Assembly: GCF_021412625.1 (NCBI RefSeq)
Contig: NZ_JAKCFI010000002.1
Span: 372,001 to 436,000 of the forward strand
Direction: 5' to 3'
DNA: 64,000 bases
Origin: Myxococcus stipitatus
GTDB lineage: Bacteria; Myxococcota; Myxococcia; Myxococcales; Myxococcaceae
The notes under the pieces are model-generated. The model made no database searches, was not told where the DNA came from, and saw nothing but the letters and a program-made list of their open reading frames with translations. Below, one piece after another: positions 14,659 through 33,716 of this stretch. The translations under genes and the position numbers were made by a program. Numbering within the stretch: the stretch's first letter is position 1; the number at the start of each line of letters is the position of its first letter.

Positions 14659-16073
14659 CGCGCAACAAGCCCCCCAGTCTCTTCAAGACGCGGCACGCCG
14701 CGCAGGTCCACTTCGTGGGCATTGGCGGCATCGGCATGAGCGGCATCGCGGAGGTCCTGCTCAACCTGGGCTACCGCGTCTCCGGCTCCGACCTGAAGGA
14801 GAGCGACACCACGCGCCGGCTCGCGCGCATGGGCGCCACCATCTTCGAGGGCCACCGCGCGCAGAACCTGGTCCAGGCGGACGTGGTGGTCATCTCCTCC
14901 GCGGTGCGCAAGGACAACCCGGAGGTCGTCACCGCGCGCCAGCGGAAGATTCCCGTCATCCCTCGCGCGGAGATGCTCGCGGAGCTGATGCGCCTGAAGT
15001 ACGCCGTCGCCGTGGCGGGCAGCCACGGGAAGACGACCACCACGTCCATGGTGGCCACGGTGCTGAGCGCCGCGGGCCTGGACCCGACGGCGGTGGTGGG
15101 CGGCAAGGTGAACGTGCTCGACTCCAACGCCAAGCTGGGCAAGAGCGAGCTGATGGTGGTGGAGGCGGACGAGAGCGACGGCAGCTTCCTCAAGCTGCAC
15201 CCGTCCATCTCCATCGTCACCAACATCGACCCGGAGCACATGGACCACTACGGCACGCTGGACGCGCTCCAGTCCGCCTTCGTGGAGTTCTGCAACCGGG
15301 TGCCGTTCTACGGCCTCAACGTGCTGTGCCTGGACAACCCCAACGTCCAGGCGCTCCTGCCGCGCATCGAGAAGCGCTTCGTCACCTACGGCAGCTCGCA
15401 CATGGCGGACTACCGCCTGGAGAGCATCGCCCTGGACGGGTTCACCACCACCTTCCAGGCGTTCCGCCGCGAGGAGGCGCTGGGCGAGTTCCGCGTGCGC
15501 ATGGTGGGCGCGCACAACGCCTTCAACGCGCTGGCGGTCATCGCCGTGGCGGAGGAGATGGACATCCCGCTGGAGACGGTGCGCTCGGCGCTGGCCGAGT
15601 TCGGCGGCGTGCAGCGGCGCTTCACCGTCAAGGGCGAGGCCCGGGGAATCACCGTGGTGGACGACTACGGCCATCACCCCACGGAGGTGCAGGCCACCCT
15701 CGCGGGCGCCCGCCGCGCGTTCGGCCGGCGCGTCGTCGTGGCTTTTCAGCCACACCGCTACACCCGCACACACGACCTGATGAAGGAATTCACCACGTCG
15801 TTCAACGACGCGGACGTGCTCTTCGTCTCCAATGTCTACGCCGCGGGAGAGGAGCCGATTCCGGGCGCCACCGGCGATGCGTTGGCGGACGCCATCCGCG
15901 CCCACGGCCACCGCGACGTCACCTTCGTGGCGAAGCGGACGGACCTGGCGCGAGAGTTGCTACCCCGGCTGCGTGAGGGCGACCTGGTGCTGACGTTGGG
16001 CGCCGGTGACATCACCCAGGTGGGGCCGGAGCTGCTGTCGCTCCTGAATGGCTCGGCCCCGGCGAAGGGGTAG
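14655..16073 (+). CDS. murC: UDP-MurNAc:L-alanine ligase MurC
   Basis: A 472-residue Mur ligase adding L-Ala to UDP-MurNAc, the first stem-peptide residue. The Rossmann motif [14 protein letters not shown] (22-35), the P-loop GSHGKTTTT (122-130), [10 protein letters not shown] and [10 protein letters not shown] are typical MurC signatures. The GTG at 14655 overlaps the murG stop. The order murG-murC-murB-ddl matches the canonical dcw cluster. Confidence 0.97.
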
Positions 16074-16078
16074 CAACC

Positions 16079-17014
16079 ATGGTGGAAGTGGGCGTGACGA
16101 CGGCGCTGGCCAGGCGCGTGGCACAGCTGGCGGGGTGCGAGGTGAAGCCGGGAGCGCCGCTCGCGCCGCTCATCAGCGTGCGCGTGGGAGGCGCGGCGGA
16201 GGCGCTGGTGCGTCCCCGTTCGCCGGACGCGCTGGTGGCGCTCCTGAAGCTGGCGCGGGACGAGGGTGTGCCGGTGGCCATCCTCGGCGGTGGCGCCAAC
16301 ACGCTGGTGGGAGATGGGGGCGTCGCGGGCGTCACCGTGAAGCTGCCGGGTGACATGTTCGCGGAGCAGGTGGAGCTGGGCGCGGACGAGGGGCGGGTGA
16401 CGCTCGGGGCCGGGGCGGCCATCGTGAAGCTCGTCAACCTGATGCGGGGCAACGGGCTGGTGGGCGCGGAGTTCCTCGCCGGCATCCCTGGCACGCTGGG
16501 CGGCGCGGTGGCGATGAACGCCGGCACCAAGAACGGCGAGGCGTTCCGCGTCATCGAGGCGGTGGAGGTGGCCACGGCCGACGGGGTGGGGTGGTTGACG
16601 AAGGCCCAGGTCCCCCATGCGTACCGGCACTCGGAGCTGCCGGCGGGCGGCGTGGTGACGCGGGTGCGCTTCCTCCTGCCCAAGGGCGACGTGGCGGCGT
16701 CCAAGGTGGTGATGGACGCGGACCTGGGCTACCGCAAGCGCACGCAGCCGCTGAGCCAGCCCAACTTCGGCAGCGTCTTCACCAACCCGCCGGGCGACCA
16801 CGCGGGCCGGTTGATTGAAAAAGTGGGCCTCAAGGGGCACACCCTGGGGCGCGCGCAGATTTCGACGTTGCACGCCAATTGGATCGTCAACCTGGGCGGG
16901 GCCACCGCCCGGGACGTGCTGGGGCTCGTGACGCTGATGCAGACGCGCGTGCGCGAGGAGACCGGCGTGGACATGAAACCCGAAGTCAAACGCATGGGAG
17001 CGTTCCTGCCATGA
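16079..17014 (+). CDS. murB: UDP-N-acetylenolpyruvoylglucosamine reductase MurB
   Basis: A 311-residue FAD/NADPH enzyme that reduces UDP-GlcNAc-enolpyruvate to UDP-MurNAc. The FAD-binding region contains ILGGGANTLVGDGGVAG and GIPGTLGGAVAMNAG; the substrate domain has the AYRHSELP segment and SQPNFGSVFTNP, whose Ser is the proton donor. The type resembles the shorter MurB form lacking the E. coli insert. The ATG lies 5 bases after murC, and the stop overlaps the ddl ATG (ATGA). Confidence 0.96.
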   Translation: MVEVGVTTALARRVAQLAGCEVKPGAPLAPLISVRVGGAAEALVRPRSPDALVALLKLARDEGVPVAILGGGANTLVGDGGVAGVTVKLPGDMFAEQVELGADEGRVTLGAGAAIVKLVNLMRGNGLVGAEFLAGIPGTLGGAVAMNAGTKNGEAFRVIEAVEVATADGVGWLTKAQVPHAYRHSELPAGGVVTRVRFLLPKGDVAASKVVMDADLGYRKRTQPLSQPNFGSVFTNPPGDHAGRLIEKVGLKGHTLGRAQISTLHANWIVNLGGATARDVLGLVTLMQTRVREETGVDMKPEVKRMGAFLP

Positions 17015-17967
17015 CAGCCATTCGCGGTGCCTTCACGAAGGAAGAGCTGCGCTCCAAGCGCGTGGGCGTGCTGTTCGGCGGCCTGTCCGCCGAGCGCGAG
17101 GTGTCCCTGCGCACCGGCGCGGCCGTGTCCGGCGCGCTGCGCTCGCTGGGCTACGACGTGGTGGACATCGACGTGGGCAGGGACCTGCCCGCGCGGCTCG
17201 TCGCGGAGAAGGTGGACGTGGCGTGGCTGGCGGTGCACGGGCGCTACGGCGAGGACGGCAGCCTCCAGGGGCTGCTGGAGTCCATGTTCATCCCGTACAC
17301 GGGCAGCGGCGTGCTGGCCTCGGCGCTGGGCATGGACAAGGTCTACGCCAAGCAGGTCTTCATCGCGCACGGCATCCCCACGCCGCCCTATCGCGCGTTC
17401 CGTGACGAGGCCTCCGCGCTGGCGGCGAAGGACTCCCTGCCGTTCCCCTTCCCGGTGGTGGTGAAGCCCAGCCGCGAGGGCAGCAGCGTGGGCGTGCACA
17501 TCTGCAAGACGCCCGACGCCTACGAGGCCGCGGTGCGGGACGCCGCGAAGTACGCGGGCACCCTGCTGGTGGAGCAGTTCATCAAGGGGCGTGAGGTGCA
17601 GGGCGGCGTCCTGGACGACGAGGCGCTGGGTGTCATCGAGGTCCGCGCCGCGCGAGAGTTCTACGACTACGACGCGAAGTACAAGGCGGGCACGGGGACC
17701 CAGTACCTCTTCCCGGCGCCCCTGCCTCCGGAGCAGTACACGCGGGTGAACGAGGTGTGCCTGGGCGCGCACCGCGCGCTGGGCTGCGCCGGTGGCTCGC
17801 GCTCGGACGTCATCGTCACGGAGAGCGGCGACGTGTACCTGCTGGAGACCAACACGCTGCCGGGCATGACGGCGACCAGCCTGCTGCCGAAGATCGCCGC
17901 GGGGCGTGGCATCGACTTCCCGGCGCTGTGCGAGCGGCTCCTGCTGGGCGCGTCGCTGAAGTCCTGA
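17011..17967 (+). CDS. ddl: D-alanine:D-alanine ligase Ddl
   Basis: A 318-residue ATP-grasp enzyme making the D-Ala-D-Ala dipeptide used by MurF. Visible marks: VGVLFGGLSAEREVSLRTG at the N-terminus, HGRYGEDGSLQGLLE, the ATP-grasp KPSREGSSVGV loop, and LLETNTLPGMTATSLLPK with metal/ATP ligands. The ATG overlaps the murB stop. It ends the first block of the dcw cluster; a decayed second copy of the same gene lies at 20777-21090, next to ftsQ. Confidence 0.96.
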   Translation: MTAIRGAFTKEELRSKRVGVLFGGLSAEREVSLRTGAAVSGALRSLGYDVVDIDVGRDLPARLVAEKVDVAWLAVHGRYGEDGSLQGLLESMFIPYTGSGVLASALGMDKVYAKQVFIAHGIPTPPYRAFRDEASALAAKDSLPFPFPVVVKPSREGSSVGVHICKTPDAYEAAVRDAAKYAGTLLVEQFIKGREVQGGVLDDEALGVIEVRAAREFYDYDAKYKAGTGTQYLFPAPLPPEQYTRVNEVCLGAHRALGCAGGSRSDVIVTESGDVYLLETNTLPGMTATSLLPKIAAGRGIDFPALCERLLLGASLKS

Positions 17968-17991
17968 GACGCCGGTTCCGTCCGGTCGAGA

Positions 17992-18015
17992 TGCGGCCCG
18001 GGGAACCGGGCCGCA
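17992..18015. terminator. Hairpin at ddl / Cys-rich gene junction
   Basis: Perfect 10-bp stem TGCGGCCCGG/CCGGGCCGCA with a GGAA tetraloop, 24 bases after the ddl stop and 28 bases after the stop of the opposing small gene. No U-tract follows on either strand. It probably ends or protects both transcripts. Confidence 0.6.
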
Positions 18016-18043
18016 CGAGGTGAGTGCCCGCCGTCTTCCTGTA

Positions 18044-18301
18044 TCAGTTGAGGGGAGGGCCGTAGTCGCAGTGCCGGTAGCAAATCCGGAGGACGTTCTC
18101 GCAGCGGCTGATGCACGCGTCGTCCTCCGCGCACCCTTCGGTGCAATTCAGAAAGGCACTGTCGCAGTCATCGCAGAGCACCCCCGCGACGTCCGCCCCA
18201 TTGCCCTCGGCCGCCTCGCCATCACCGCGGGCCTCGGCTGCGACGGCAGCACCTGCTCCGAGGCAAAGCCCCACGACTGCCGCCAGGATTGTCTTTTTCA
18301 A
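18044..18301 (-). CDS. Small secreted Cys-rich protein
   Basis: An 85-residue precursor with a signal peptide (LKKTILAAVVGLCLGAGAAVA, cleavage after about residue 22). The mature region has eight cysteines spaced as CxxC then three CxxxC pairs (CTEGC, CISRC, CYRHC), suggesting a compact disulphide-bonded or metal-binding fold. I do not recognise a family. The TTG at 18301 is chosen because it starts the signal peptide and has GGGGGG upstream; an ATG at 18349 would add 16 residues that do not look like part of a signal. It runs against the dcw cluster and is convergent with ddl. Confidence 0.65.
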   Translation of the reverse strand: MKKTILAAVVGLCLGAGAAVAAEARGDGEAAEGNGADVAGVLCDDCDSAFLNCTEGCAEDDACISRCENVLRICYRHCDYGPPLN

Positions 18302-18941
18302 GTGACCCCCCAATGTATGGATTCGGCTCCACCTGGCGTTTGCCCTCATGGCGATCCACCAGGCTCAGGTGAGACGCCGAGTGCGGCATTTCTTGTCGGG
18401 GCCTTTCTTCGACGAGCGTGCAGTGGGTGCCCCTGGCGGGCAGGGAGGAGCACGGCGCGAGCAACTGGGGCCTCGGCATCGTCGCCATGATTCATGCGGG
18501 CTGACGCGCCCCGGAAGGTCGGGCCTCGAGGTGAACGAGGCGCGCCTGGGGCTCTCTCGGAAGCGTGCAAAGAAGGGTTGATGGCGCGCGAGGAGCACAC
18601 GGCCTTCCCGCGCGACTCGGAGGGGGCGTGAGGGCGCGAAGGCGTCACGGGGGCGGCACAGGCAGCGGCGGGTGAGGAGGGCCGCGCAGGCTTTGCATGA
18701 CTTCCGGCTTCGAGCCGGGGGCACTCGGCCTCGCGTTCGCTCGCTGTCCAGGGCGCGGCATGCGGGCCGCTCCACGTGCAAACGAGAAACCAGCGGAGCC
18801 TCGAGCGCGCCCTTCTCCACCGCGCGCGCCCCGTTCTCCTCCATGGAGCAAGGGGTCCTGTGCGCCGCGCGAATTCGAGCGAGCAGCCTCCTTGATAGGA
18901 GTGCCCGCACTCTCGCGTGGCGTCACCTCCATGAGGTCTCG
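18302..18941. other. 640-base stretch without a convincing gene
   Basis: Open frames here have poor codon bias and no recognisable domain. One + frame ending at a TGA near 18503 reads NWGLGIVAMIHAG before the stop, which might be the tail of a decayed gene, but upstream it does not stay coherent. A 6-bp hairpin CCGGCT/AGCCGG sits at 18704-18718. The promoters of the small Cys-rich gene (-) and the LVIVD lipoprotein gene (+) must lie inside. Confidence 0.4.
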
Positions 18942-20681
18942 ATGCTGTCCCTGTCCCCCCCTCGCTCGTCCTGGGTCGCCTTCGTGGCCTGGGGCCTGCT
19001 GCTCTCCACGGCTCCTGGCTGCCGCGACTCGTCCCCCTCCACCTCCGATGCGGGCGTCTCCGATGATTCGGGCACACCCGACGCGGGGGCGCCCGACTCC
19101 GGGACGCCTCCCTGGGATGGCACGTACACGGTGCTGGAGGAGCGGGGCGACGGCACGGGCGACCCTGGCGTGCTCTCGCGCTGCGCGCTCGTGCCGCAGG
19201 TGGGCGAGAGCCCTGCTGGCGGCTGCTTCGACCCGTCCATCTTCGACCTGTCCTCCTGCGACACCTCGACGCTCGCCAACGTCCCGACGAACGGCATCTA
19301 CCAGGTGCGGTTGCGGGAGGAGCACGCGCTGGCGGATGGCGGCGTGGGGGGCTCGTATTACACCGTGACGATGGGCCTGCGCGGCGACGGCGGCACCAGC
19401 ACGTTCTACTACCGGCCCGTCAGCCATGATGCGCGCGACACGGACAGCCTGCTCGTCGGCACCACCGTCCCCGTCCGGGACGGAGGCGTCACCTACACCC
19501 TGGCGGGATGCGAGGCGCCCAACGACCATTACTTCACGGGATGCTTCGTCCGGTGCACCAATGGCCGGGTGGTGGAGCGGGCCACCGCGGACGCCCACCG
19601 CATGGTGTGGCGCGAAGGCGAGGCGGAGTCCTCGGGTGGCCTCGAGCTCGTGTCGGAAACGTACGTCCCGCAGGGCACCCCGCTGGACGTCTATGTCGCG
19701 AAGAACCACGCCTTCGTGGTCTCCGCCAACGCCTACCTCCGCCCGGGCAAGCCCGGAGGCCTCTCCATCTACGACGTGACGGACCGGCGCCACCCCGTGT
19801 TGAAGAAGGTCATCAGCCTCCCCGACGACCAGCTCTGGAACAGCGTGTGGACCAAGGGGGACGCGCTCTACGTCGCCAGCCAGGACACCGGCATCGTCGT
19901 CTTCGACATCACCAACCCGGTGGACCCGCAGCTCGTGCGCCGCGTGCCCACCAGCGCCCCCCTGGCCGTGCACACCGTGCTGGTGGACGGGGACCGCCTC
20001 TACGGCATGGGCCTGTGGCCCTCGAACAACACGCTCGTGTTCGACGTGTCCAAGCCGCTGGAGCCCATGCTGCTCCAGCGCCTCTCGTTCCCCCTGGTGG
20101 ACACCTACGACGCGCCCCATGACGCCTTCGCCTACCAGGGCCGGCTCTACATCAGCCACATGCAGTCCGGCCTCCACGTCGTCGACGTCGAGAACCCGAA
20201 CGACATGAAGCTGCTGGGGACCTACGCGTACCCGAACAGCACCGCCCATCACAACGCGGTGGGCACGTTCGCCGGGCGCACCATCGCCTTCGAGGGCGGC
20301 GAGAACCACGGCGCCCACCTGCGCGTGCTGGACGTCACCGACCCGACGCACATCGTGAAGATTGGCGAGTTCCAGCTCCGGCCCACCGTCTCCATCCACA
20401 ACATCCTCCTGGTGGGCACGCGCCTCTACATCACCTGGTATCAGGAGGGCGTGCGCGTGCTGGACGTGTCCAATCCCACGAAGCCCCGGCAGATTGCCCA
20501 CTTCAACACCCACCGCGAGACGGACCCGGAGCGCACCGATGACGTCTTCGAGGGCGCCATCGGCATCCGCGTGCCCGGCGACGGCTACGTGTACGTCGTC
20601 GACACCTCGCGCGGACTGCTCATCATGAACGAGCTCCCGCTCGACACCCAGGCGGGAGGCGCCCCCAAGACGGCCCCCTAG
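18942..20681 (+). CDS. LVIVD-repeat lipoprotein
   Basis: A 579-residue predicted lipoprotein. The lipobox region ends APGC with Cys27 after a hydrophobic segment, followed by a Ser/Asp/Gly/Pro-rich linker (DAGVSDDSGTPDAGAPDSG). The C-terminal two thirds holds about six LVIVD-type beta-propeller blades, seen as LSIYDVTDRRHP, IVVFDITNPVDP, LVFDVSKPLEP, LHVVDVENPND, LRVLDVTDPTH and VRVLDVSNPTKP. Such proteins are exported beta-propellers common in myxobacteria with no defined reaction. The ATG at 18942 has GAGGT 7 bases upstream. It interrupts the dcw cluster between ddl and ftsQ; no link to division is visible. Confidence 0.88.
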   Translation: MLSLSPPRSSWVAFVAWGLLLSTAPGCRDSSPSTSDAGVSDDSGTPDAGAPDSGTPPWDGTYTVLEERGDGTGDPGVLSRCALVPQVGESPAGGCFDPSIFDLSSCDTSTLANVPTNGIYQVRLREEHALADGGVGGSYYTVTMGLRGDGGTSTFYYRPVSHDARDTDSLLVGTTVPVRDGGVTYTLAGCEAPNDHYFTGCFVRCTNGRVVERATADAHRMVWREGEAESSGGLELVSETYVPQGTPLDVYVAKNHAFVVSANAYLRPGKPGGLSIYDVTDRRHPVLKKVISLPDDQLWNSVWTKGDALYVASQDTGIVVFDITNPVDPQLVRRVPTSAPLAVHTVLVDGDRLYGMGLWPSNNTLVFDVSKPLEPMLLQRLSFPLVDTYDAPHDAFAYQGRLYISHMQSGLHVVDVENPNDMKLLGTYAYPNSTAHHNAVGTFAGRTIAFEGGENHGAHLRVLDVTDPTHIVKIGEFQLRPTVSIHNILLVGTRLYITWYQEGVRVLDVSNPTKPRQIAHFNTHRETDPERTDDVFEGAIGIRVPGDGYVYVVDTSRGLLIMNELPLDTQAGGAPKTAP

Positions 20682-20776
20682 CGCTGGAGGAGCTCTCCGG
20701 GGAGCGGTGGAGGTGTCGCCATTCCTCGGAGAGGGGTCTCGCACGCGCTGGGCCCTTCCGCTCGCCCGGCGCGTGA

Positions 20777-21090
20777 GTCGCTCGATGGCTCGCGGCCCTC
20801 GGCCGATACGAGGAGCGGGTTTCGGGCACCAGGCCGCGTCTTCCTTGGAGAAGGAAGACGTGGCCTGTCGGTGCACGGCCGCCCGGCGAGGACGGCGGCC
20901 TCCAGGCGTGCTCGAGGGCCAGGTGCATCCGGGCACGCGCGGCGCCGCGTGGACTTCGGAGCCGGGCACCATCGAGGTCCGCTCCGCGTGCCGCGCGCTC
21001 GGCCGTCATCGTCACGGAGCGTGGTGACACAGCCCCGCTGTCGAGTCGCGACACGCAGGACTTCCCGCGCCGTGAAGCCTCGCCCAGGAG
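20777..21090 (+). pseudogene. Decayed second copy of ddl
   Basis: This stretch aligns collinearly with ddl at 17130-17930 in blocks. Bases 20849-20965 match 17205-17322, sharing CGGTGCACGG, GGCGAGGACGGC and GCCTCCAGG. The sequence around 20970-20990 matches 17632-17650 (CATCGAGGTCCGC). Bases 20994-21019 match 17798-17823 with one mismatch in 26. A weaker match continues through GACTTCCCG at 21059. Between blocks several hundred bases are deleted and frames are broken, so no Ddl product is possible. The edges are approximate. Its place directly before ftsQ is the usual position of ddl in dcw clusters. Confidence 0.72.
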
Positions 21091-21382
21091 CTCCACTCAT
21101 GCGGGCCGCCTGGGGCGGGAGCCCTCGTTTCACACGGGGCGACGCTGGCAACTCCCGGCCGTTCTGGTCAGAGAATCCAGTCCATCCTGGGAAACCTGCC
21201 TCCACATCCGATGAGCGTCCTCCGCGGTCCCTTCGCCTTCGTTCCCACCCGGCCAAGACGCGGAGCGTCAGACTCGCGCGGTGATGAAGGGGCGCGGGGC
21301 TGGCGACGCGCGCTCCTCCTGCGGGGACCCGTGCTTCTCCTGGGAAGAATGGCCTTGAAATTCAGGCGCTTGAGGATCAAGG

Positions 21383-21420
21383 TCCGCGCCCCCTCGCCGG
21401 GGGGCACCAGGGGGCGCGGA
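21383..21420. repeat. 12-bp perfect inverted repeat upstream of ftsQ
   Basis: TCCGCGCCCCCT/AGGGGGCGCGGA with a 14-base loop, 107 bases before the ftsQ ATG. No U-tract is present on either side. It could be a terminator for transcription from the accessory genes, an RNA structure in the ftsQ leader, or the scar of an insertion. Confidence 0.6.
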
Positions 21421-21526
21421 TGCCCTGGTTCCTCGTCGTGGGGCGCTCGCTACAGCGACGTGCCTGTAGCCAAAAACTGGCCAGGAGATCCATCCGCGCG
21501 CAGCATGCGAGTCCACCGTACCCACC

Positions 21527-22381
21527 ATGGCCTTTGGTCGAAGCAAGAACCGCCGCCGTCAGGACTCCGCCCAGCGAAACGAGGCGGTGAAGAGCGCGGT
21601 GCGCGTGAAGGGCCCGGGCGTGGTGAAGGTGCTGGCGCTGACGCTGGTGACGGGGCTGATGGTCTGGGGTGGGGTGGAGCTGCGGGCGTGGGCGCTGTCC
21701 TCGCCGCGCTTCGGGCTGGCGGCGGTGTCCTTCACGGGGCTGCAGCGGGCCTCGCGGGTGGAGCTGTTGCGGTTGGCGGGGCTGACGAAGGGGCAGAACC
21801 TCTGGACGTTGGAGGCGGGCGCGCTGGAGCGGGCCATGCACCAGCACCCGTGGGTGAAGCGCGTGGTGGTGACGCGCCGCTTCCCCGACCGCGTCTCGGT
21901 GGAGGTGACCGAGCACGTGCCGGAGGCGATGGCGGTGTTGGGCGAGCTGTACGTCCTGGACGAGGAGGGCGAGCCCTTCAAGCGGGTGACGCCCGGCGAC
22001 GGGCTGGACCTGCCGCTGGTGACGGGGGTGGACCGGGAGGGCTACGTGGCGGACCCGGCGGCGGCGCGGGAGCGGTTCCGGACGGCGCTGGCGGTGGCAC
22101 GGGCCTACGCCGAGCAGTCCCCGGGCAAGACGGAGCGGCTGAGCGAGGTGCGCCTGGTCGCGCGCGACGTGACGCTCGTGGCCGCGTCCGGCCAGGAAGT
22201 GCGCCTGGGAGAAGGAGATTCCGAGGTCAAGCTGCAGCGACTGGCCCGTGTTCGTCGCGAACTGGGCGCCAGGGGGCTTGCAGCGGAGATCATTCACCTG
22301 GATAACCGGGCCCGGCCCGGTTGGGTGGCGGTGAAGCTTTCGAACTCCGCGTCCGAGAGGAGCGGGGTTTCGATGCAGTAA
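21527..22381 (+). CDS. ftsQ: Cell division protein FtsQ (DivIB)
   Basis: A 284-residue bitopic protein. A basic cytoplasmic tail (KNRRRQ) precedes one membrane segment (about 31-52). A POTRA domain follows (about 58-130) with VSFTGLQRASRVELLRLAGL and HPWVKRVVVTRRFPDRVSVEV, then the FtsQ beta domain with LYVLDEEGEPF and LPLVTG. FtsQ scaffolds FtsL/FtsB at the septum. The ATG at 21527 begins a typical basic tail; the upstream in-frame sequence is not conserved-looking. ftsA follows after 44 bases. Confidence 0.93.
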   Translation: MAFGRSKNRRRQDSAQRNEAVKSAVRVKGPGVVKVLALTLVTGLMVWGGVELRAWALSSPRFGLAAVSFTGLQRASRVELLRLAGLTKGQNLWTLEAGALERAMHQHPWVKRVVVTRRFPDRVSVEVTEHVPEAMAVLGELYVLDEEGEPFKRVTPGDGLDLPLVTGVDREGYVADPAAARERFRTALAVARAYAEQSPGKTERLSEVRLVARDVTLVAASGQEVRLGEGDSEVKLQRLARVRRELGARGLAAEIIHLDNRARPGWVAVKLSNSASERSGVSMQ

Positions 22382-22425
22382 GAGGATGCCTCTTTCACGA
22401 AAGTGGGGGGCCTGGGAGGGTTGTC

Positions 22426-23658
22426 ATGGCGAAGCAGAAGTCGGGGGAGATCATTGTCGGCCTCGACATCGGCACGACGAAGATTTGCGCCATCGTCGGG
22501 GAGCTGACCGACAGCGGTATCGACATCATCGGTATCGGGACGCATCCGTCGAAGGGGCTGCGCAAGGGCGTGGTGGTGAACATCGAGGCGACCGTCTCCT
22601 CCATCCGCCGAGCAATCGAAGAAGCGGAGCTGATGGCGGGCGCGGAGATTTCGCACGTCTACACGGGCATCGCCGGTGGCCACATCAAGGGGTTCAATTC
22701 CCAGGGCATCGTGGCGGTGAAGGACAAGGAGGTCCGCGAGGCGGACATCGCGCGCGTCATCGACGCGGCGAAGGCGGTGGCCATCCCGTTGGACCGGGAG
22801 GTCATCCACGTCCTGCCCCAGGAGTTCATCATCGACGACCAGGGCGGCATCAAGGAGCCCCTGGGCATGGCGGGCGTCCGCCTGGAGGCCAAGGTCCACA
22901 TCGTGACCGGGGCCGTGTCGAGCGCGCAGAACATCGTCAAGTGCGCCAACCGCACGGGGCTCAACGTCTCCGACATCGTCCTCCAGCCGCTGGCGAGCGC
23001 CGAGGCGGTGCTGGGCGAGGACGAGAAGGAGCTGGGCGTGTGCCTCGTCGACATCGGCGGCGGCACGACGGACATCGCCATCTTCTCCGGCGGCTCCATC
23101 GTCCACACGGCGGTGATTGCGCTGGGCGGCAACAACCTGACGAGCGACATCGCCATCGGCCTGCGCACGCCCGCGCACGAGGCCGAGCGCATCAAGCAGA
23201 AGTACGGCTGCGCGCTGGCGTCGCTCATCAACAAGGACGACACCCTCGAGGTGCCCAGCGTGGGGGGCCGTCAGCCCCGCGTGCTCGGGCGGCAGATCCT
23301 CTGCGAGATCCTCGAGCCGCGCGTGGAGGAGATCTTCCAGCTCGTCCACCGTGAAATCCAGAAGTGCGGCTACGAGGACCTGCTGGCCTCGGGCGTGGTG
23401 ATTACGGGCGGCTCCACGCTGCTGGCGGGCATGCCGGAGCTGGCGGAAGAGGTGCTCGGGCTGCCGGTGCGCCGGGGCATGCCGCGCGGCATCGGCGGGC
23501 TGGTCGACGTGGTGAAGAGCCCCATGTACGCCACGGGCGTGGGCCTGGTGGTCTACGGCGCCAAGCACCTGGACCGGCGGATGTTCCGCATCCGCGAGGA
23601 GAACGTGTACAAGAAGGTCAAGGGCCGCATGCGCGAGTGGCTCGAGGAAATCTTCTAG
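22426..23658 (+). CDS. ftsA: Cell division protein FtsA
   Basis: A 410-residue actin-like ATPase that tethers FtsZ to the membrane and recruits later divisome proteins. The phosphate-1 motif GLDIGTTKICAIVGE, the SHUT/1C domain region with HVLPQEFIID, the phosphate-2 motif VDIGGGTTDIAIF, VITGGSTLLAGM, and a C-terminal amphipathic helix (KGRMREWLEEIF) for membrane binding are present. GGGAGGG precedes the ATG. In most genomes ftsZ follows directly; here an 8.1 kb gene separates them. Confidence 0.97.
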   Translation: MAKQKSGEIIVGLDIGTTKICAIVGELTDSGIDIIGIGTHPSKGLRKGVVVNIEATVSSIRRAIEEAELMAGAEISHVYTGIAGGHIKGFNSQGIVAVKDKEVREADIARVIDAAKAVAIPLDREVIHVLPQEFIIDDQGGIKEPLGMAGVRLEAKVHIVTGAVSSAQNIVKCANRTGLNVSDIVLQPLASAEAVLGEDEKELGVCLVDIGGGTTDIAIFSGGSIVHTAVIALGGNNLTSDIAIGLRTPAHEAERIKQKYGCALASLINKDDTLEVPSVGGRQPRVLGRQILCEILEPRVEEIFQLVHREIQKCGYEDLLASGVVITGGSTLLAGMPELAEEVLGLPVRRGMPRGIGGLVDVVKSPMYATGVGLVVYGAKHLDRRMFRIREENVYKKVKGRMREWLEEIF

Positions 23659-23975: not shown

Positions 23976-32054
<8,079 letters not shown>

Positions 32055-32266: not shown

Positions 32267-32492
32267 GACCTCCCGGGGTACACGTCCTCCGCGAGTCAAG
32301 AGGGGGGACGCGCGGTCCGCGCGGCGTTGCCCGCGTTCCAGGGCGTCACGTAAGTCCGCGTCAGGACTCGGCGGCGCAGCATCCCGCTACAGGTGCGTAG
32401 CGGAATACTTGCCAAAGAGTGGGACTTGCTGATGATTGTGGAGGTTGGAGGCCCGCGCGCTGCGTCGCGCGACGCCTGCCGAAAGGACCGCC

Positions 32493-33716
32493 ATGGACCA
32501 GTTCGACCAGAACAAGCAGGCCGCCAAGATTCGGGTGGTGGGGGCAGGTGGGGCCGGCTGCAACGCGGTCAACACGATGATTCTGTCCAAGTTGGACCGG
32601 GTGGACTTCATCGCGGCCAACACGGATATCCAGGCGCTCGCCGCCAGCAAGGCGCCCACGCGGCTGCAGCTGGGCCAGACGCTGACCAAGGGCCTGGGCG
32701 CGGGCGCCAACCCGGAGATGGGCCGCGAGGCCGCCCTGGAGTCCCGGGACCAGATTGCCGCCGTGCTCGAGGGCGCGGACATGGTGTTCGTCACCGCCGG
32801 CATGGGGGGCGGCACGGGCACGGGCGCCGCGCCCATCATCGCGGACATCGCCAAGAGCCTGGGCTGCCTCACGGTGGGCGTCGTCACCAAGCCCTTCCTC
32901 TTCGAGGGCAACAAGCGCCGCAAGCAGGCCGAGCAGGGCATCGTCGAGCTCAAGGCCGCGGTGGACACCCTCATCACCATACCGAACCAGCGCCTGCTGT
33001 CGCTCTCCAACGCGCCCATGCCGCTGCTGGAGACCTTCAAGCGCGCGGACGAGGTCCTGCTCAACGCCGTGCAGGGCATCAGCGACCTCATCCAGTACCA
33101 CGGCTACATCAACGTCGACTTCGCCGACGTGAAGACCATCATGAGCGACAAGGGCCTGGCGCTCATGGGCACCGGCCATTCGTCGGGTGAGAAGCGCGCG
33201 CTCACCGCCATGCAGCAGGCCATCGCCAGCCCGCTGCTGGAGGACGTGTCCATCGACGGTGCCACGGGCCTGCTCATCAACATCACCGGCGGCCGGGACA
33301 TGACGCTCCAGGAGGTCAACGAGGCGTTGACCCTGGTGCACGACGCGGCGGACAGCGAGGCGGAGATCATCTTCGGCTCGCTCATCGACGAGAACATCCA
33401 GGACGAGGTGAAGATCACCATCATCGCCACCGGCTTCGTGCACCGGGACGCCCCGAAGGTGCGGCCCGTGGCGCCGGTGGTGCAGGTCCCCCTGGCGCGT
33501 CCGCCGCAGCAGTCCATGCTGGTGGGCACGCGCGAGGAGGTCGCAAGCCTGGTGCCCGCGAAGGGTGGGGCGCCGCGTCCGCTCGCCGCGGTGGACAACA
33601 GCAAGGCCGTCAGCAACCGCACCGCGGTCGTGAAAGACGCCGCGCTGCCGCTGGACGAGGATCAGTTCGACATCCCCACGTTCCTGCGTCGCCAGGGACA
33701 GACGGAGCTGCCGTAG
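32493..33716 (+). CDS. ftsZ: Cell division GTPase FtsZ
   Basis: A 407-residue tubulin homologue forming the Z-ring. Visible: [12 protein letters not shown], the GTP-binding signature GGGTGTG (105-111), the T7-loop region [12 protein letters not shown] with the catalytic Asp, a variable linker (about 320-390), and the C-terminal FtsA/ZipA-binding peptide [16 protein letters not shown] lies 5 bases before the ATG at 32493; the in-frame upstream part lacks conservation. It is separated from ftsA by the giant gene and its terminator, so it can be regulated apart from the rest of the cluster. Confidence 0.98.

Follow-up and report, generated by a model that had tools for sequence, protein, structure and literature searches.

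A predicted ddl pseudogene beside inserted accessory genes upstream of ftsQ in Myxococcus stipitatus

RESULTS

The DNA upstream of ftsQ in Myxococcus stipitatus contains what we predict to be a noncoding pseudogene, a decayed second copy of ddl, whose true extent is about positions 20836 to 21028 of the window (the whole 64,000-nucleotide stretch analyzed here). We favor, with a probability of about 0.72, the reading that a lipoprotein gene entered the ddl-ftsQ junction before the split between the genome of this window (G000) and its closest relative among the compared genomes (G002), that ddl was duplicated as direct repeats around the insert, and that the extra copies decayed.

The functional copy has been kept. 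Intact ddl, encoding a 318-residue D-alanine–D-alanine ligase (17011 to 17967, plus strand; Pfam Dala_Dala_lig_C, 4e-53), is complete; it overlaps the stop of murB with its start, as seen in relatives, and it occupies its native position adjoining murB in all relatives compared. On the other side of the junction, ftsQ (21527 to 22381, plus strand), whose orthologues adjoin ddl across the family, is preceded by a leader (21345 to 21526, plus strand) that represents the native ftsQ side of the junction and that an alignment of ddl-ftsQ intergenic regions shows to be partly common to relatives. No high-copy repeat was found when the leader was checked for a repeat element.

BLASTN comparison of positions 20682 to 21526 with ddl (17012 to 17967) returned three plus-strand blocks in the same order as in the intact gene ∼3 kb upstream. 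Block 1 (20847 to 20968) corresponds to ddl positions 195 to 322 (76% identity over 129 columns; E, 1e-18), the collinear block 2 (20970 to 20988) to ddl 624 to 642 (18 of 19 bases; E, 7e-4), and block 3 (20988 to 21028) to ddl 782 to 822 (85% identity; E, 2e-9). The last of these contains most of a 25-of-26 match between remnant and ddl, CGCGCTCGG(C/A)CGTCATCGTCACGGAG. The remnant spans ddl ∼195 to 822, with losses relative to ddl of ∼301 and ∼139 bp between blocks. Block 1 carries seven small indels (4, 1, 1, 1, 1, 1, and 1 bases), most of which break the frame, and the open reading frames over the region do not form one continuous Ddl frame; an intact reading frame is absent. The remnant is predicted to yield no Ddl fragment and is probably without function. 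These data bear out the preliminary description of a decayed second ddl upstream of ftsQ.

The similarity also withstands correction for base composition, a check named in that description. With an nhmmer profile built from 26 Myxococcus-genus ddl genes, the composition-corrected E value was 4.4e-8 for positions 20836 to 20916, which stretches block 1 leftward to 20836, and 0.023 for block 3. Control windows were real sequence of equal length taken elsewhere in the 64 kb, on both strands. The core scored 134 against a control mean of 66 and maximum of 106, and none of the 2,224 control windows reached the core score. In a whole-genome search, the best match of positions 20770 to 21100 besides itself was the intact ddl (6e-15).

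The remnant had initially been drawn from 20777 to 21090. Its core stands, but the outer ends (20777 to 20835 and 21030 to 21090) were rejected as background: 193 of 2,226 control windows matched as well as 20682 to 20835, and 171 of 2,234 matched as well as 21030 to 21110. Smith-Waterman comparison of ddl with the entire 845-bp interval gave a long alignment with many gaps, which was likewise discarded. It scored 405 compared with 299 ± 13 for shuffles, but one unrelated control window scored 387, so we limit our trust to the tight blocks.

A strong hairpin (20826 to 20874, plus strand; 16 contiguous pairs plus 5) lies at the left end of the pseudogene, its right arm within block 1. Folding of positions 20815 to 20880 gave −42.3 kcal/mol (z, −5.0), and none of 200 shuffles was as stable. 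The left arm seems to be a copy of the right arm, of the kind that template switching at a quasi-palindrome produces, and the hairpin could serve as a terminator. Rfam returned nothing above curated thresholds in positions 15500 to 23000. Just upstream of ftsQ, at ∼21450 to 21475, there is an inverted repeat, GCTACAG-N8-CTGTAGC, inside a block that all aligned genus genomes conserve; its right arm varies in some of them, and it is a possible operator. The ftsQ leader also includes an extra ∼100 to 170 bp that is common to G005, G006, G003, and G000/G002 and absent from G009 and G012, which are close relatives of G003.

We next consider the ddl-ftsQ junction in the 70 Myxococcaceae genomes in which both genes lie on one contig. 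The gap between them has a median of 140 bp and is no longer than 200 bp in 58 of the 70; a short gap is thus the state of most related species at the interval where the preliminary description had suggested looking. Longer gaps occur in G000 (3,562 bp), G002 (4,784 bp), G006, G013, G024, G003, G005, and five more distant genomes. Named relatives among the matches are Myxococcus and Corallococcus. The inserts comprise an LVIVD lipoprotein gene in G000 and G002, at this junction in these two only among the genomes compared, together with a gene for a Cys-rich protein in G000 and for an RCC1-repeat protein in G002. G006 carries a Big_5 protein, and G024 a protein weakly matching M10 peptidases, in an interval that is 97% identical in G013. 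No clear ddl remnant was found at the other insertions (G006, G013/G024, G068, G070, and G082), clear remnants being restricted to G000 and G002 among the compared genomes; insertion at this junction therefore does not need duplication. In G040 and G041, both genomes of their genus, ddl and ftsQ lie on different contigs, which suggests that the cluster is broken between the two genes. Farther along the division cluster of the window, between ftsA and ftsZ (ftsZ frame, 32436 to 33716), another large gene (23976 to 32054) encodes a 2,692-residue repetitive surface-type protein with an OmpA-like C terminus, as judged by eye.

The two accessory genes in the window differ in their distribution. The Cys-rich protein (18044 to 18301, minus strand; 85 residues with a signal-peptide-like start) belongs to no Pfam family and has weak relatives (37 to 47% identity) elsewhere in eight other genus genomes. 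Its gene was not found in G002, so it probably arrived separately from the lipoprotein gene. The latter (18942 to 20681, plus strand) encodes an LVIVD-repeat beta-propeller lipoprotein (PF08309, 3e-18) and has close relatives at unrelated places in other Myxococcus-genus species, with homology confined to ∼1.9 kb. At its site in G005/G006, its stop codon abuts the end of the next gene, and the neighbors are uninterrupted in G003, G009, and G008, an empty-site comparison made at the G005 site only. Given the unrelated locations, the ∼1.9-kb limit of homology, and the empty neighbors, the lipoprotein gene appears to relocate as a single-gene unit, independently of ddl. Neither a recognized transposase nor an obvious target-site duplication was seen with it. 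No integrase or recombinase was found in the inserts of G000 and G002, in which the Cys-rich, LVIVD, and RCC1-repeat proteins were the only ones recognized.

Comparison of G000 with G002 revealed a second remnant. The two genomes are 88% identical across the lipoprotein gene region and 81% across the ftsQ leader; between these, G000 has 240 bp containing the pseudo-ddl versus ∼30 bp in G002. Upstream of its lipoprotein gene, G002 instead carries a 95-bp piece from the 3′ end of ddl, stop codon included, at 77% identity (nhmmer, 8e-6; 0 of 2,230 controls scored as high). In G000, the inserts lie between the intact ddl upstream and the pseudo-ddl downstream; in G002, the lipoprotein gene has a remnant on its upstream side and no copy downstream. 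A candidate ddl 3′-end remnant in G000 (18640 to 18745, plus strand) lies at the position of the G002 remnant; its signal is weak, with 6 of 500 shuffles and 57 of 2,230 real windows as high. There is one sure remnant per genome, on opposite sides of the lipoprotein insert, and ddl remnants flank the insert on both sides only when G000 and G002 are taken together.

Phylogenetic placement bears on the origin and age of the copies. Trees of murB, ddl, ftsQ, and ftsA all put G000 and G002 together inside one clade; the ddl tree pairs them with G005 and G006 (0.976), in mild discordance with the trees of neighboring genes. FastTree placed both remnants, ∼72 to 77% identical to ddl, inside the (G000, G002) ddl clade with support of 1.0. 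Within it, the G000 remnant groups weakly with the ddl of G002 (0.82) and the G002 remnant with that of G000 (0.96), on short alignments (177 and 97 sites, respectively) with very long branches. Shared rare alleles agree with these placements, and the substitutions private to each genome are not shared, as a group, by the remnant found there. The placements suggest that the duplicate was copied from this lineage's own ddl before G000 and G002 split, and, since neither remnant groups by its own genome's private substitutions, the duplication probably predates that split. Third-position identity between the two genomes is 85 to 95% in these four genes. The event had earlier been called fairly recent, which is not supported here; with a probable date before the separation of species that differ at 5 to 15% of third positions, "recent" holds only in a relative sense.

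DISCUSSION

The observations to be explained are a lipoprotein insert shared by two species, one ddl remnant in each, and none in other relatives. We propose that in the common ancestor of G000 and G002 an insertion placed the LVIVD lipoprotein gene between ddl and ftsQ and a duplication of ddl sequence arose, both in what we infer to be one linked event. The likeliest mechanism would be insertion-duplication, in which incoming DNA that bore both the lipoprotein gene and a stretch homologous to ddl was joined to the chromosomal ddl through a single crossover. The product would read ddl-insert-ddl-ftsQ; the copy overlapping murB would stay functional, and redundant copies would lose large pieces through deletion and frameshift. 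A repeated single crossover would give the order in G002, ddl-RCC1 gene-ddl 3′ end-lipoprotein gene-ftsQ. No donor, crossover point, or product of such an event was seen in the compared genomes. The preliminary description had likewise suggested that a ddl duplication flanked the incoming genes. That idea is broadly supported for the lipoprotein gene, since its insertion at this junction and the additional pieces of ddl occur in G000 and G002 only, but it is not supported for the Cys-rich gene, which is absent from G002.

The main competing explanation, which we regard as a serious if less probable one, is that a tandem ddl duplication arose first, by replication slippage or unequal exchange, and that accessory genes later settled between or beside the redundant copies, where they did no harm. 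The single-gene insertions without ddl duplication at this junction in other genomes indicate that the two events are separable, and the movement of the lipoprotein gene to unrelated places as ∼1.9 kb without ddl points the same way. Against this order of events, the duplication and the lipoprotein insertion fall on the same branch, and no genome was found with the duplication but without the insert.

Each remnant is certain in one genome only, as would be the case if two partial duplications had occurred independently, one in G000 that left an internal part of ddl downstream of the lipoprotein gene and one in G002 that left the ddl 3′ end on the upstream side of that gene. The tree placements make this rather unlikely: the G002 remnant goes with G000 ddl (0.96) and the G000 remnant weakly with G002 ddl (0.82), a pattern that would follow from copies older than the split. 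Somewhat more doubtful still is an extension of the crossover idea in which the ddl-ftsQ junction of Myxococcus has received single accessory genes, mostly lipoprotein genes, time and again, with ddl as the repeatedly used homology and older ddl copies displaced downstream each time. If this were true, the stacked remnants, ddl-RCC1 gene-ddl 3′ end-LVIVD gene-ddl piece-ftsQ, would be a record of insertion order.

The preliminary description had offered, as another option, that the original ddl lay beside ftsQ and fell into decay once a copy had taken over; in the form considered here, that copy would be an incoming ddl lying upstream. The pairing of G000 and G002 with G005 and G006 in the ddl tree does leave room for some homologous exchange in ddl, but the intact gene overlaps murB as it does in relatives and remains in its expected clade, and no outside lineage lies nearer to the pseudo-copy; we consider such a takeover improbable. 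Chance similarity of GC-rich, coding-like DNA, for which one could cite the many short GC-rich matches to ddl in the genome, can be dismissed in view of the three ordered blocks, the composition-corrected profile E value of 4e-8, and the 0 of 2,224 control windows as high.

Returning to the reading of one pre-split insertion with duplication, several known systems offer comparisons. As in a decayed redundant bacterial duplicate, one copy is intact and the other, nearby and in the same orientation, has frameshifts and large deletions. Nothing fundamental differs; here, unrelated single genes separate the copies, and the G002 remnant lies across the lipoprotein gene. Single-crossover (Campbell-type) integration likewise leaves direct repeats of a host gene on either side of the insert, a likeness that we infer here, with no mobility genes seen any more than a donor or crossover point. 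Elements that rebuild the 3′ end of their target gene would resemble G002, where a displaced 3′ end of ddl lies on the far side of the insert; they differ in that the G002 remnant is 95 bp at ∼77% identity and the G000 remnant is internal ddl sequence. An integrative element with its attachment site in ddl was rejected, there being no integrase and no identical core repeat at both ends (the remnants are ∼72 to 77% identical). Judged by titles and abstracts, the literature retrieved on Myxococcus pseudogenes and duplication held nothing bearing on ddl, and that on the Myxococcus dcw cluster and ftsQ yielded only a Streptomyces paper.

We conclude that the pseudo-ddl is a real pseudogene of an ordinary kind, a product of ordinary genome evolution in an instructive context. 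Although no functional consequence is evident, the remnant would be a fossil of the event that opened the junction, placed on the branch leading to two species, and it suggests that a conserved junction of murein and division genes can open by accessory gene insertion along with duplication of an essential gene.
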